From assembly GCF_041228105.1 (NCBI RefSeq), contig NZ_CP166097.1:3968001-4032000 (forward strand): a stretch of DNA of 64,000 nucleotides, read 5' to 3'. Under the pieces are notes generated by a model. The model did not search any database. It saw only the letters and a list, made by a program, of their open reading frames with translations, and was not told the DNA's origin. The DNA comes from Pectobacterium aroidearum (GTDB lineage: Bacteria; Pseudomonadota; Gammaproteobacteria; Enterobacterales; Enterobacteriaceae). Position numbers and translations under genes: made by a program. Below are positions 11,948 to 60,811 of this stretch, one piece after another. Numbering within the stretch: position 1 is the first letter of the stretch; each line of letters begins with the position of its first letter.

Positions 11948-12345
11948 GGTTCGTTTTATAGCTATCCCGCTACACATTTGCATCCCTGCTCATCCGTGAA
12001 AACTTTTCCTTTTTGGTCATCCTGACCCACAATCCTTGCTGGCGTCCCACTTTCTTCCTGACGTTTCCATCCTGTATCTTCCGTGATTCAATCCCTTTAG
12101 GCTCCTGCCCCACCGATATTCCTAATCGGCTCTCGGTCTCCTTCCTGGAGGTGTCCTTGATTTCATCCTGAAACCGTTTTTCTTCCTGAAAACTGCGCTT
12201 CTTCCTAAAACAGTGTTTATCCCTAAAACAGCGTTTCATCCTGAAACTGTGTCTCTTCCTGAAACAACGTTTCGTCCTGAAAACAACCCGAGTGCAGTAA
12301 CGCTATTTTGTTACCGACAGTTACCGTCACACACACTGTAACCGG
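11914..12345 (-). ncRNA. rsmB: RsmB (CsrB-type) regulatory RNA that sequesters RsmA/CsrA
   Basis: The minus strand between syd and yqcC, where E. coli has csrB, carries about 20 GGA motifs, many as CAGGAAG or CAGGATG and spaced roughly 18-20 bases apart at the 5' end. Segments match what I remember of E. coli CsrB: AAGGACACCTCCAGGA, GGAAAAGTT...GATGAGCAGGGA and AAACGAACCGGG just before the terminator. Such RNAs bind many RsmA/CsrA dimers and so relieve translational repression; in soft-rot bacteria this raises exoenzyme and quorum-sensing output. The 3' end is fixed by the terminator. The 5' end is only approximate (12280-12390), because I could not settle the promoter. A GacA-type box lies upstream at 12526. 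Confidence 0.93.
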
Positions 12346-26539: not shown

Positions 26540-26616
<77 letters not shown>

Positions 26617-26677
26617 ATTGATGTGAGTCGTCCATCAAGAGAAGTAAAATAGTCAGTAGTAAAAAAGTTAGTACGGA

Positions 26678-26754
<77 letters not shown>

Positions 26755-26809
26755 ATTGATGTGAGTCGTCCATCAAGGGAAGTAAAAGTAGTAAAGAAAG
26801 TCATACGGA

Positions 26810-26886
<77 letters not shown>

Positions 26887-56649: not shown

Positions 56650-57537
56650 TCACTTTCCTTCTACCACGCGGCGGCGTAAATAGCCGGAGACACCATCCAG
56701 CAGCGATACCACAGCAAGAATCAGTAACAAGGTCATGCTCACCTGATCATAGCGATCAAGCTTAATGTTGGTCATCAGCTCCTGACCAATACCACCCGCC
56801 CCCACCAGACCAAGAATGGTGGAAGAGCGGAAATTAATTTCCATACGCATAAAGCTGTAGGAGAGAAAAATCGGCTTTACCTGTGGCCAAAAAGCAAAGC
56901 GCATAATCTGGATCTTGCTGGCACCACAGCTTGCCAGACCGCGTACCGGCCGATCGGACGCGCTTTCCAGAGACTCATAAAACAGTTTGGTTAAGCTGCC
57001 GACAGTGTGCAGCGCCAGCGCAATAAAGCCGGGCATAGCGCCAATACCAAAAGCCATAACAAACATGACCGCCCACCCCAGTTCCGGCATGGTGCGTAAA
57101 AAGGCCACCAGCGCACGAATAGATACACGCAGCAGCATCGAAGGTTGCGTATTCGAAGCGGCACAAAATGCCAGTATTGTGGCCGCCGCCACCGCAATGA
57201 TCGTGGAGGCCAGAGCCATTTGCAGCGTTTCCCAGATCAGCGGCAGCTGTATGGGCAGCCGATACCCCCAATAAGCCAACGAGCCTTCGGTGTGAACGTT
57301 CGCCAGAAGCTGTTGCCAGTGCAATACAGGCAGCGTATCGCGTACATAGCTGAAAAAATTCGGCAGAGTATGCCAGATAGTTGCGGGACTGAACTCGGCG
57401 ACCTTGCCCGCCCCCAGAAACAGGCAGGCCAACAGTAAAGACCACAGCAGCGCCTCGCGCTTTTGTCGCCCTTTAATCTGTTGATAATAGTGCTCAAAGT
57501 CATTATTCAAAGCTGTGTCCTGTTTACCGGACGTCAT
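56650..57537 (-). CDS. phnE: Phosphonate ABC transporter permease, first PhnE
   Basis: A 295-residue permease from the ATG at 57537 (MTSGKQDTALNNDFEHYYQQ). The ORF runs on to a GTG at 57588, but that lies inside a hairpin. The EAA-like loop GLASCGASKIQIMRFAFWPQ and NFRSSTILGLVGAGGIGQEL are typical of PhnE. Two paralogous permease genes in tandem replace the single phnE of E. coli and imply a two-subunit channel. The Shine-Dalgarno is weak. Confidence 0.92.
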   Translation of the reverse strand: MTSGKQDTALNNDFEHYYQQIKGRQKREALLWSLLLACLFLGAGKVAEFSPATIWHTLPNFFSYVRDTLPVLHWQQLLANVHTEGSLAYWGYRLPIQLPLIWETLQMALASTIIAVAAATILAFCAASNTQPSMLLRVSIRALVAFLRTMPELGWAVMFVMAFGIGAMPGFIALALHTVGSLTKLFYESLESASDRPVRGLASCGASKIQIMRFAFWPQVKPIFLSYSFMRMEINFRSSTILGLVGAGGIGQELMTNIKLDRYDQVSMTLLLILAVVSLLDGVSGYLRRRVVEGK

Positions 57538-57572
57538 ACCATGACGTTGATTAGCGGACCGAAAATGTTGCC

Positions 57573-57600
57573 GCCCGTTCGATATCACGTCCGAACGGGC
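57573..57600. promoter_or_regulatory. Hairpin between phnD and first phnE
   Basis: GCCCGTTCG (57573-57581) / CGAACGGGC (57592-57600) is a perfect 9-bp stem with a 10-base loop. There is no T-run on the minus strand. Such a hairpin after a binding-protein gene often stabilises the upstream mRNA, giving more PhnD than permease. Confidence 0.5.
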
Positions 57601-57631
57601 GTTTAGGGAGTGGCGAAGCGCCCGCTCTCGA

Positions 57632-58564
57632 TCAGCGGCTGCCTTTCGTCAGTTCGCGTTTCATGTCGATGATGTGTTTGTAGTCATTCAGGCTTGCCGG
57701 ACCGATGTGCTGAGTCCCGCCCATCGCTTTCACAAAGCATTCATGCTGTTCTTTATCCAATTTCATCACCGCAGTAATGACCTTCTGTTTGAAATCCGCG
57801 GGGAGCTTGTTGCTGACCAAAATCGGCCCATTCGGGATCATCGGAGATTTCCAGATAATACGGAGCTGCTGCATCAGGTCCGGGTGATCCATGCGGATCA
57901 GACGGGTAAACGCGCCGGCGGTATAGCCCGTGTTGTAATCGCCTACCATCGATGTCCAGGCGACAGCACCGTCAAATTGGCCGTTCAGTACGCCCAGAAT
58001 GTCCTGCTCATGGCCGCCAGAGAACGTTACGCTGGAAAAGAAATTGTTGTATTTGTTGTCGTTGTTCCCACCAAATTTCTGTTTGAATACCTGATTGGGC
58101 ACCAGAAACCCCGAGGTTGAATCGGGATCGGCAAAGCCAAAGGATTTCCCTTTCAGGTCTTCCAGCTTTTTGTAGGGGCTGTCGGCTTTGACCACCACCA
58201 CAGAGTAGTAGCCACGCGACTGGTCTTTATCGTCAACAGCAATACCGACAATATCCACCGCATTAGGATCTTTCAGATAGACGGAGGCGAAAGACGATGG
58301 CGACATGCTCAGAACCAGATCGACTTTTCCTCCCAGTAAACCCTGAATGACGCCGGAGTAGTCAGAAGCGTTACGCAACCGAGTCTCAACCCCTAACTCT
58401 TTATCAAGGAACTGTTTGACGCATTGATTATCACCGATCTGCTGTGTCGCATTTTGCCCGCCCAAAATCCCCAGATTCAGCTCTTTCGGCACTCCCGCCG
58501 CCGTGGCGCTGAAGACGGTCAGTGAACTGGTTAACATCATCGCCAAACCAAAGATCTTTCTCAT
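57632..58564 (-). CDS. phnD: Phosphonate-binding periplasmic protein PhnD
   Basis: PhnD captures alkylphosphonates in the periplasm for the PhnC-PhnE transporter. The 310-residue precursor has a Sec signal peptide (MRKIFGLAMMLTSSL...FSATAAG, cleavage near residue 23). The mature protein shows LEDLKGKSFGFADPDSTSGFLVP, the phosphate-binding signature of the family. An AGGGGAT ribosome-binding site precedes the ATG. A seven-unit 16-bp tandem array fills the gap to phnC. It is shorter than E. coli PhnD (338), and a related phosphonate or phosphite ligand cannot be excluded. Confidence 0.93.
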   Translation of the reverse strand: MRKIFGLAMMLTSSLTVFSATAAGVPKELNLGILGGQNATQQIGDNQCVKQFLDKELGVETRLRNASDYSGVIQGLLGGKVDLVLSMSPSSFASVYLKDPNAVDIVGIAVDDKDQSRGYYSVVVVKADSPYKKLEDLKGKSFGFADPDSTSGFLVPNQVFKQKFGGNNDNKYNNFFSSVTFSGGHEQDILGVLNGQFDGAVAWTSMVGDYNTGYTAGAFTRLIRMDHPDLMQQLRIIWKSPMIPNGPILVSNKLPADFKQKVITAVMKLDKEQHECFVKAMGGTQHIGPASLNDYKHIIDMKRELTKGSR

Positions 58565-58592
58565 TGCTATCCCCTGTTTTCATGTCAAAGGC

Positions 58593-58703
58593 CATCGTGT
58601 TGAACGCGCATTGTTTTAAATCGACATTGTTTTAAATCGACATTGCTTTAAATCGACTTGTGCTAAATCGACATTGTGTTAAATCCACATGTGTTAATGC
58701 GCG
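58593..58703. repeat. 16-bp tandem repeat array between phnC and phnD
   Basis: Seven contiguous units of 15-16 bases begin at 58593, 58609, 58625, 58641, 58657, 58672 and 58688. Units 2 and 3 are identical (CATTGTTTTAAATCGA), and unit 4 differs from them by one base. Units 1, 5, 6 and 7 are more diverged. Unit 7 (CATGTGTTAATGCGCG) contains TTA at 58694-58696, the phnC stop codon on the minus strand. There are no spacers, so it is not a CRISPR array. It ends 28 bases before the phnD start. Confidence 0.9.
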
Positions 58704-59521
58704 TTCAGTTCATCGCCATACAGCGTATGAAGCAGCGGCTCATCCAATCGCGTTGGGTGACCGTCAAAAACAATGCGCCCCTGAGCGATCCCGATGACGC
58801 GCGTACAGTAGCGCTTCACCAGATCCACCGAGTGCAGGTTAACCATGACGCTAATCCCCTGCTGGCTCACTTCCCGCAAGACATCCATAATGCGGCGGGT
58901 ATTCTTGGGATCGAGCGACGCGACCGGTTCATCGGCCAGCAGAATTCTGGGCTGCTGCATGAGAGCCCGACAGATGGCGACGCGTTGCATCTGGCCGCCA
59001 GAGAGGTTTTCCGCACGCTGTAGCGCCTGCGGCAACATGTTTACCCATTGCAACAGTTCGATGGCGCGAGCGCGGTCCTCGTCGGAAAACACACGAAACA
59101 GTGATTTGAGCGTAGAGGTTTGGCTAAGGCGGCCTAACAAGACGTTAGTGAGGACATCCAACCGCGGAACCAGACAGAAATCCTGAAAGATCATGCCGCA
59201 ATGGGTGCGCCATTGGCGTATCTGGCGCGGGCTGAGCTTGATGATATCCTGCGGCTGCTCACCGCTGTGGTTGATAATTTCACCTCCGGAGGCGGGAATC
59301 GTGCCGTTTAACAGATGCAGTAGCGTCGATTTTCCCGCTCCGGAACGGCCAATAACAGCAACCAGTTCTCCCGTGTGCAGATCGAAGTTAATGTCGTCTA
59401 GCACTCGATGTTGTGGAGACCACGCTTTCCCTACGCCCCGAACGGACAACACCTTTTGCGACCGAACGGGCTGTAACTGCGTTTTAAATTCGAGGCCGGA
59501 TTTCAATAATACCTGTGCCAT
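58694..59521 (-). CDS. phnC: Phosphonate ABC transporter ATP-binding protein PhnC
   Basis: PhnC powers phosphonate import. The 275-residue protein has Walker [10 protein letters not shown] at 58-66, the ABC signature LSGGQMQR, Walker [14 protein letters not shown] and the switch His in [17 protein letters not shown] precedes the ATG. It carries an N-terminal extension of ~20 residues relative to E. coli PhnC (262). Its stop codon lies in the last unit of a 16-bp tandem array. It follows phnM after 153 bases, enough for its own promoter. Confidence 0.95.
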
Positions 59522-59609
59522 CTTAGTATCCTCATGTGGTGAGGTCGCTCACTCATTAAGAACAGACGGCGTGATGATTTCATGAACAATTAATGATTAA
59601 AAAATGACC

Positions 59610-59629
59610 ATTTGCAACGATTTGCAACT
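59610..59629. promoter_or_regulatory. 10-bp direct repeat in the phnM-phnC spacer
   Basis: ATTTGCAACG and ATTTGCAACT occur in tandem; on the minus strand this is GTTGCAAAT twice, one helical turn apart. The second TTGCAA is also a candidate -35, with ATTAAT 17 bases downstream. A Pho box (two CTGTCAT repeats 11 bases apart) was sought here and not seen. Confidence 0.4.
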
Positions 59630-59674
59630 CTCTCTTTGTCCACGCCACCTCCCACAACGAAGGCAATCAACCGG

Positions 59675-60811
59675 TTAATACACTTTCTGCCCTTTTGCCC
59701 AGACATGACGAATATGAACATGGCCGTGAAACGTATGCGCCAGAACCAAATCGGCACGTCTCCCTTCGGCAATCACACCGCGATCGTGTAACCCAATAGC
59801 GCGGGCAGGATTGCGTGTCAGCAGGGTAATAGCGCGCGGCAGGTCATAAGGATTACTCTCGTCCTGGGCAAGACGAAATGCGGCATCCAACAGGCTGGCG
59901 GGGTAGTAATCGGAAGAGAGAATGTCCAGCAATCCCAATTGAGCCAGTCGACTGGCTGACACGTTGCCGGAATGCGAGCCACCACGTACCACGTTGGGAG
60001 CCCCCATCAACACCAGCAACCCACATTCGTGTGAGCATCTCGCCGCCGCTTCGGTAGTGGGAAATTCAGCAATTGCGCTGCCCACCTGAAGGGATTCGTT
60101 AACGTGTTCTACCGTCGCATCATCATGACTTGCCAGAGTGATCCCTTTTTCACGGCAGAGTGCTGCAATGGCGAAGCGATTGGGCTGAGACCAGCGAGCG
60201 GCCAGCGCCATCTGTTCCTCCTCAAACGCAGCCATCTGCTGATTACTGAGATGATATTTTCCCTGAAAATACTCGCGGTATTTCTGCAACGAGGTGTACT
60301 GCCGCTGGCCGGGTGAGTGATCCATCAATGACACCAGCAAGAGATCGGGCGTATTCATCAGTTGTTCAAACAGCGGAACGGTGGCGTCATACGGCAGTTC
60401 ACAGCGCAGGTGCAATCGGTGTTCAGCGCGGTTGAGCCCTTTTTCCTGCCCCTGACGGATGGCGTCGATCATTTTATCTAGGTTATCGAAGCGATGCCCG
60501 CCGTCCCGCACGTCACCCACAGCAATCGCGTCCAGTACGGTGGTGATGCCATTCGCTACCATCAATGCGTCGTGACTGCTCATTGCCGAGTAAGCAGGCC
60601 AATCTACTTTTGGCCGCGGGGTAAAAAATTTATCGAGATTATCGGTATGCAGTTCCACCAGCCCCGGCAGCAGAAAACCACCCTCACCATCAATGGCCTC
60701 GGGCAATTGGCTACATGTGCTGCTGACACGGAGAATCACGCCGTTTTGCACGTCCAGCGATCCGTAAATTACCTCATTTTCCAACACCAAGTGGACATTA
60801 TTGATAATCAT
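59675..60811 (-). CDS. phnM: Alpha-D-ribose 1-methylphosphonate 5-triphosphate diphosphatase PhnM
   Basis: PhnM releases pyrophosphate from the triphosphate intermediate to give ribose 1-methylphosphonate 5-phosphate, the C-P lyase substrate. From the ATG at 60811 ([20 protein letters not shown]) it has 378 residues, the E. coli length. The amidohydrolase HxD metal site is H55/D57 in [23 protein letters not shown] and [14 protein letters not shown] follow. It overlaps phnL by 14 bases. phnN, phnO and phnP, which follow phnM in E. coli, are absent here. Confidence 0.96.

Follow-up and report, generated by a model that had tools for sequence, protein, structure and literature searches.

Intercistronic hairpins occur in binding-protein transporter operons, an example being the REP sequence between malE and malF. 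Minisatellites with units of 15–65 bp are listed among the features of Pectobacterium genomes in PMC6286560, and PMC6127512 cites the typing of Dickeya by VNTRs. For the cryptic phn genes of E. coli K-12, an 8-bp slippage between direct repeats in phnE is reported to restore the gene at high frequency (PMC4759930). No account of this array was found among the titles and abstract openings listed from open-licence PMC papers (for one topic, 10 of 494 matches). The array described here lies between these two cistrons in P. aroidearum and is, judged by comparison with related spacers, a lineage-specific intercistronic minisatellite whose most likely origin is slippage acting on a single older unit.

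The window, the whole stretch of 64,000 nucleotides that was analysed, comes from a 5.28-Mb genome that is conspecific with P. aroidearum L6. The gene order on its minus strand fits phnF, G, H, I, J, K, L, M, phnC, phnD and two phnE; NCBIfam checks covered PhnC, PhnD, both PhnE and PhnM, and the other phn names are those that we take the genes to bear from sequence and order. A suspected disruption of phnI at the window edge was ruled out, as the gene is complete in L143. From order and strand we infer that phnC and phnD share one mRNA. The 129 nt from the phnC stop to the phnD ATG consist mostly of the tandem array. As first described, it lies within one transporter operon between two of its cistrons, 28 bases from the phnD ATG (58564). 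The coordinates and the consensus CATTGTTTTAAATCGA were also correct. The two genes and the array, with its units in mRNA order, are as follows:

58694–59521, minus strand: phnC, phosphonate ABC transporter ATP-binding protein, 275 aa (TIGR02315, 298.5 bits, cut-off 266.1), stop codon at 58696–58694
57632–58564, minus strand: phnD, phosphonate ABC transporter substrate-binding protein, 310 aa (TIGR03431, 314.5 bits, cut-off 261.1)
58593–58703: whole array as first described, 111 nt
58688–58703, minus strand: CGCGCATTAACACATG, originally counted as the first unit, really the phnC 3′ end with its stop codon plus half a unit
58672–58687, minus strand: unit TGGATTTAACACAATG
58657–58671, minus strand: 15-bp unit TCGATTTAGCACAAG
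58641–58656, minus strand: unit TCGATTTAAAGCAATG
58625–58640, minus strand: unit TCGATTTAAAACAATG
58609–58624, minus strand: unit TCGATTTAAAACAATG, identical to the preceding one
58593–58608, minus strand: anchor unit CGCGTTCAACACGATG, adjoining phnD, with an orthologue in all seven Pectobacterium spacers

The array is genuine, and chance is excluded, because TRF reports it in the window at 58609–58695 (period 16, 5.4 copies) with a score of 123, and at 127 for a period-31 call, against a highest score of 57 in 20 dinucleotide-shuffled windows. Matches to the consensus with at most three mismatches were observed at four places, where 0.39 were expected. An assembly artefact is unlikely because an equally long array stands in the separate record of P. 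aroidearum L6. The identity of the second and third units was confirmed from the sequence, whereas the total of seven units proved an overcount. By hand count, 58593–58608 agrees with the consensus at 9 of 16 positions and 58688–58703 at 6 of 16 ungapped positions. The former, although diverged, is on comparative grounds a true unit, because its orthologue is the one unit common to all seven Pectobacterium spacers. On a stricter count there are five close copies, of which one has 15 bp, together with a diverged anchor and a phnC end of which only half resembles a unit.

This phnD is patchy in the genus: it was found in 7 of the 25 Pectobacterium genomes searched, the window's own counted, and these seven enter the spacer comparison. 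In Pectobacterium sp. PL152 it is split over three matched pieces (L015–L017), and the transporter may be inactive there. Spacers from phnC stop to phnD ATG, with full units counted by eye, are:

G000, the window's genome: 129 nt, 6 full units
G004, P. aroidearum L6: 129 nt, 6 full units
G016: 84 nt, 3 full units
G020, Pectobacterium sp. PL152: 81 nt, 3 full units
G021: 68 nt, 2 full units
G009, P. carotovorum DSM 30168: 66 nt, 2 full units
G010: 51 nt, 1 full unit

Copy number therefore does alter the spacing between the cistrons, as had been proposed. Head-to-tail units of 16 bp in 5.4 copies, within the size range of about 15–65 bp, and a copy number that differs among these seven related genomes fit a minisatellite or VNTR. 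The anchor unit next to phnD, mostly TGCGTTTAACACGATG, is kept in every one of the seven spacers. The additional units differ in length, being 16 bp in both P. aroidearum strains, about 17 bp in G016 (TRF period 17) and 15 bp in G020 (two copies of TGCGTTTAACACTTG), so they seem to have arisen separately in the lineages; by eye, units also resemble each other more within than between species. In a tree of phnC and phnD the three-unit G020 is sister to the two six-unit P. aroidearum strains (99/99) and the three-unit G016 pairs with the two-unit G009 (93/96), the deepest fork of the genus being unresolved. This placement makes at least two independent gains of units likely. Between the two P. 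aroidearum strains, which differ by 1.7% over phnC–phnD, the spacer shows three substitutions and equal length. Unit count thus varies between species (1, 2, 2, 3, 3, 6 and 6 units) and not between these two strains, whose equal length at 1.7% divergence gives the idea of rapid copy-number change no support.

The original prediction also held that the last unit contains the phnC stop and that unit duplication may have shaped the phnC end. The stop does lie there (TTA at 58694–58696 on the plus strand). The C-terminal end E-L-N-A/V-H-stop, however, is present in all seven Pectobacterium genomes, including G010 with its single unit, and histidine plus stop also closes phnC at all seven distinct Dickeya spacers and, outside the two genera, at 58 of the 71 distinct spacers. 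A stop that is kept without an array, in the same place in few-unit species and in other genera, rules out the array as its source; on this comparison the array begins at the phnC end but did not make that end.

The wider spacer comparison comprised 112 loci (seven Pectobacterium genomes, 29 further family matches by locus and 32 by place, 40 named contigs and four extra Dickeya), some genomes entering twice. These reduce to 85 distinct sequences, seven from Pectobacterium, seven from Dickeya and 71 from others. The set excludes the G020 fragments L016 and L017 (broken gene), the fragments of G052 and G128 and weaker matches (at most 44% identity), and the phnD start, set by protein match, is approximate at some loci. 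A TRF score of at least 50 was reached by 6 of the 85 distinct spacers, those of G000, G004, G016, G020 and the Dickeya genomes G304 and G231, and by none of 1,700 shuffled spacers. Dickeya, whose spacers include sequences identical to those of D. undicola and D. oryzae, has its own, different arrays between phnC and phnD: 18 bp × 2.7 in G304 and 14 bp × 4.8 in G231, the other five distinct spacers scoring 44 (L088), 39 (L020), 34 (L087) and below 30 (L084 and L090). Among the 71 distinct spacers outside the two genera no array scored 50 or more, and three scored 33–35. In the E. coli genomes of the searched collection, no match to phnD DNA was obtained in 'distant' mode. Serratia proteamaculans UME734 (L056) has a 190-nt phnC–phnD spacer with long inverted repeats (by eye), and the other 15 named Serratia loci have spacers of 17–59 nt.

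As a genomic baseline we sampled 20-kb stretches, 27 from G000, 20 from G016 and 20 from Dickeya G231. Arrays with TRF scores of at least 50, mostly with units of 14–22 bp, numbered 22 in 540 kb, 17 in 400 kb and 59 in 400 kb, respectively; tandem arrays are thus three to four times denser in Dickeya G231 (L151–L170) than in the two sampled Pectobacterium genomes. Spacers were delimited by a crude, mechanical mask of ORFs of 100 codons or more; of those measuring 51–200 nt, 6 of 166 (G000), 6 of 105 (G016) and 10 of 91 (G231) carried an array of this score, and 2 of 166, 3 of 105 and 7 of 91 a strong one (score of 60 or higher with 2.5 or more copies). Similar arrays being widespread in this baseline, the phnC–phnD array is therefore a strong case of a common class. 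Strong arrays stand in the phnC–phnD spacer of two of the five Pectobacterium genomes other than P. aroidearum and two of the seven Dickeya; we make no claim of a hotspot, since the binomial probability is about 0.008 for the former but about 0.1 for the latter, and spacers within a genus are non-independent.

Arrays of at least five copies are rarer. Two were found in 604 kb of G000, window included, and both lie within the window; the 400 kb of Dickeya G231 hold four, of which one falls entirely and another for the most part within ORFs of 100 codons or more. The second array in the window, at 12161–12282, has an 18-bp unit in 6.7 copies (TTTCTTCCTGAAACAGTG), and lies in a region whose only ORF is short (89 aa, minus strand) and which is matched over 537–574 nt in all six other Pectobacterium genomes searched. 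Three near-identical tRNA-Met genes (CAT anticodon) also stand in tandem in the window (26540–26886, 138-bp period). In Pectobacterium G016, CTGGTTTAACAAGATG, which closely resembles the phn unit, is repeated in tandem about three times at L172:2862–2910, perhaps just past a gene end, and is followed by a 13-bp perfect hairpin, GTGCTGTCGATAA ... TTATCGACAGCAC. Membership of a dispersed repeat family (REP, ERIC or MITE) was ruled out: the 15-mer at up to two mismatches gives 14 matches, the array's own three included, exactly as many as a reversed control.

A Shine–Dalgarno-like sequence precedes phnD in all seven Pectobacterium genomes and lies between the array and the start codon:

58569–58575, minus strand: phnD Shine–Dalgarno-like sequence AGGGGAT

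The corresponding sequence is AGGTGAT in four of the other species and GGGTGAT in one. If the 16S tail is assumed to be the E. coli sequence, AGGTGAT and GGGTGAT have predicted pairing energies of –10.4 and –9.8 kcal/mol, against –6.5 for the P. aroidearum variant, and the predicted cost of opening the site is 7.1–9.5 kcal/mol in the former species against 5.5 in P. aroidearum. The predicted sum of pairing and opening ranges from –0.3 to –3.3 kcal/mol over the seven, and P. aroidearum, at –1.0, lies within this range. The 44 nt before phnD differ by 0–16% between species and third codon positions of phnC by 7–19%; within the five species other than P. aroidearum this leader is the more conserved of the two (0–9%), but that of P. 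aroidearum has diverged (14–16%).

In the E. coli and Haloferax gene pairs for which PMC10666635 reports tests, reinitiation was nearly abolished at a gap of about 20 nt. The seven Pectobacterium gaps of 51–129 nt show neither the overlap nor the very short gap of termination–reinitiation; because they exceed that limit and phnD has its own Shine–Dalgarno-like sequence, translational coupling of phnC and phnD appears unlikely and independent initiation at phnD likely. A simple consensus scan of 57400–59800 gave no promoter-like site on the coding strand. A promoter or terminator in the spacer was rejected as an explanation: that region holds one candidate of each kind, both on the plus strand and thus against the operon, and these counts are below the shuffle means of 2.0 and 2.7.

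The array is flanked by an exact 12-bp inverted repeat, and a hairpin that encloses it is plausible from folding models. Its predicted parts are:

58696–58707, minus strand: predicted 5′ arm of the inner stem, TGAACGCGCATT (last phnC codons and first stop base)
58601–58612, minus strand: predicted 3′ arm of the inner stem, AATGCGCGTTCA, over the anchor unit
58712–58717, minus strand: predicted 5′ side of the outer stem (GGC, AT), invariant in six distinct Pectobacterium rows
58590–58595, minus strand: predicted 3′ side of the outer stem (AT, GCC), invariant in the same six rows

The 12-bp repeat was equalled in 0 of 200 shuffles for G000 and 1 of 200 for G004, and the 10-bp repeat of G016 in 0 of 200. 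Repeats of 7–8 bp in G021, G009 and G020 were equalled in 27, 25 and 17 of 200, respectively, and G010 has no inverted repeat of note (183 of 200 shuffles reach its best). The same minimum-energy fold, with the array in its loop, is predicted in six of the seven Pectobacterium spacers. Folding z-scores are –2.4 (G000), –2.9 (G004), –2.4 (G016), +0.3 (G021), –0.9 (G009), –2.0 (G020) and –0.2 (G010), and the predicted probability of arm pairing is about 0.51 in G021, about 0.99 in G009 and about 0.23, a minority state, in G020. In the six distinct rows 90.1% of cells pair, a share that drops to 48.9% or less once the structure is slid, a control that favours a structure derived from one row. Pairing survives a two-sided change (A-U to G-C) at one pair and one-sided changes at three; this covariation is within chance, since 80 of 500 shuffles match the two-sided count and 70 of 500 the covariation score. 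Rfam returned no family match at the spacer up to E = 1 and one weak match (E 0.47, far below the gathering score) inside the phnD region on the plus strand.

We consider it probable, with some room for doubt, that the array is a minisatellite born of slippage in a spacer able to accommodate it, that phnD relies on a ribosome-binding site of its own and that any functional effect is weak. A single unit of 15–16 bp next to phnD would be the ancestral state, from which replication slippage would have produced tandem duplications within the untranslated spacer, extended separately in several lineages and furthest in P. aroidearum. The spacer would tolerate the array because phnD is presumably read from its own Shine–Dalgarno sequence 3′ of it, and because the phnC end and the anchor unit would pair into a hairpin that holds the units in its loop; this hairpin may also promote slippage. 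The effect on PhnD output would probably be small and constant within a species. Three results pull the other way: the frequency of strong arrays here relative to the baseline leans towards a special site; the inverted repeats of G000, G004 and G016, rare as they are in shuffles, could reflect a selected structure; and P. aroidearum alone combines the longest array with a weaker Shine–Dalgarno-like sequence and a lower opening cost, which could be a linked adjustment.

Alternatively, a conserved hairpin in which the phnC end pairs with the anchor unit might itself be the functional element, setting mRNA decay or the ratio of PhnC to PhnD in the way that intercistronic hairpins act in other transporter operons such as malE–malF, with the array as an elastic loop, held closed, whose length matters little. 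The fold shared by six of the seven spacers, the pair changes that keep pairing and the excess of paired cells over slid alignments would fit this, as would some Dickeya spacers in which GC-rich arms likewise enclose a loop containing TTTAA. The loss of the fold in G010, the weak repeats of G021, G009 and G020, the chance level of covariation and the bias of the slide control speak against it, as do the missing Rfam match and a 5′ arm that is coding sequence and would be opened by the terminating ribosome; we regard a functional hairpin as unlikely. If the array were instead a contingency locus, frequent slippage would change copy number and tune PhnD between sibling cells. Head-to-tail repeats with two identical neighbours, the differing copy numbers of the species and the phnE precedent reported in E. 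coli K-12 are what such a locus would lead one to expect. Equal length in two strains 1.7% apart is not, neighbouring units are mostly imperfect copies, and the array lies outside any frame or recognised promoter able to switch, all of which leaves the contingency reading very improbable.

The units themselves contain start–stop frames (ATG TCG ATT TAA), the following ATG lying some 4 nt further along, and these frames might relay terminating ribosomes from phnC towards phnD. Such ATG-to-stop mini-ORFs number four in G000, three in G004, three in G016 and five in Dickeya G231, counts reached by 2, 8, 57 and 0 of 1,000 shuffles, respectively, a rarity that is overstated because shuffling ignores the copying of one unit. 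They are absent from the other four Pectobacterium spacers; of the two Dickeya genomes counted, G322 has only one (reached by 403 of 1,000 shuffles). G004 has lost one of the ATGs, the 15-bp unit contains none, and by eye no Shine–Dalgarno sequence precedes the unit ATGs, so that a relay seems extremely improbable. A broader reading would make the spacer a recurrent expansion site in which Pectobacterium and Dickeya have in parallel expanded hairpin-closed units with start–stop frames that tune the PhnC:PhnD ratio, the weakened Shine–Dalgarno-like sequence of P. aroidearum being a matching adjustment. We give this broader reading only a slim chance. The flanking 12-bp perfect inverted repeat might, finally, be taken for the termini of a MITE- or REP-like mobile element inserted in the spacer. 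Species with two or three units keep the same arms, however, so that there is no empty site, no target duplication is seen beside the arms (by eye) and the unit is no more frequent elsewhere than its control. An insertion is thus ruled out on the present data, the arms being present without a long array, and we assign it hardly any probability.

Minisatellite growth by slippage in a tolerant spacer therefore remains our preferred reading, and regulation of the phn genes by the array is not demonstrated by sequence comparison. If neutral, the array would show clearly how a minisatellite can expand within an operon and leave it intact, and the spacers of 51–129 nt that occur naturally in Pectobacterium would form a ready series on the importance of cistron spacing. 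If the hairpin or the number of units sets the PhnC:PhnD ratio, it would represent a simple, evolvable tuning of an operon from within. Such arrays are common in Pectobacterium and Dickeya, and a lone array should not be read as regulation.

Like the minisatellites and VNTRs described in these two genera, the phn array has a unit of suitable size (16 bp), is arranged head to tail and is intergenic; it differs from them in standing within an operon between transporter cistrons, in a predicted hairpin loop, and in having the same length in two strains. Like the phnE repeat of E. coli K-12 described in PMC4759930, it sits in an operon for phosphonate transport and is made of direct repeats altered, here most likely, by slippage. 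The phnE repeat, however, is part of the reading frame and turns its gene off and on, whereas the phn array lies in a spacer and changes no frame. As with the REP between malE and malF, a hairpin, here a predicted one, adjoins a binding-protein cistron in a polycistronic mRNA; in the phn operon, however, the ATPase gene contributes its end to the arms, the hairpin is placed 5′ of the binding-protein gene, the sequence is non-dispersed, and the loop is itself a tandem array.
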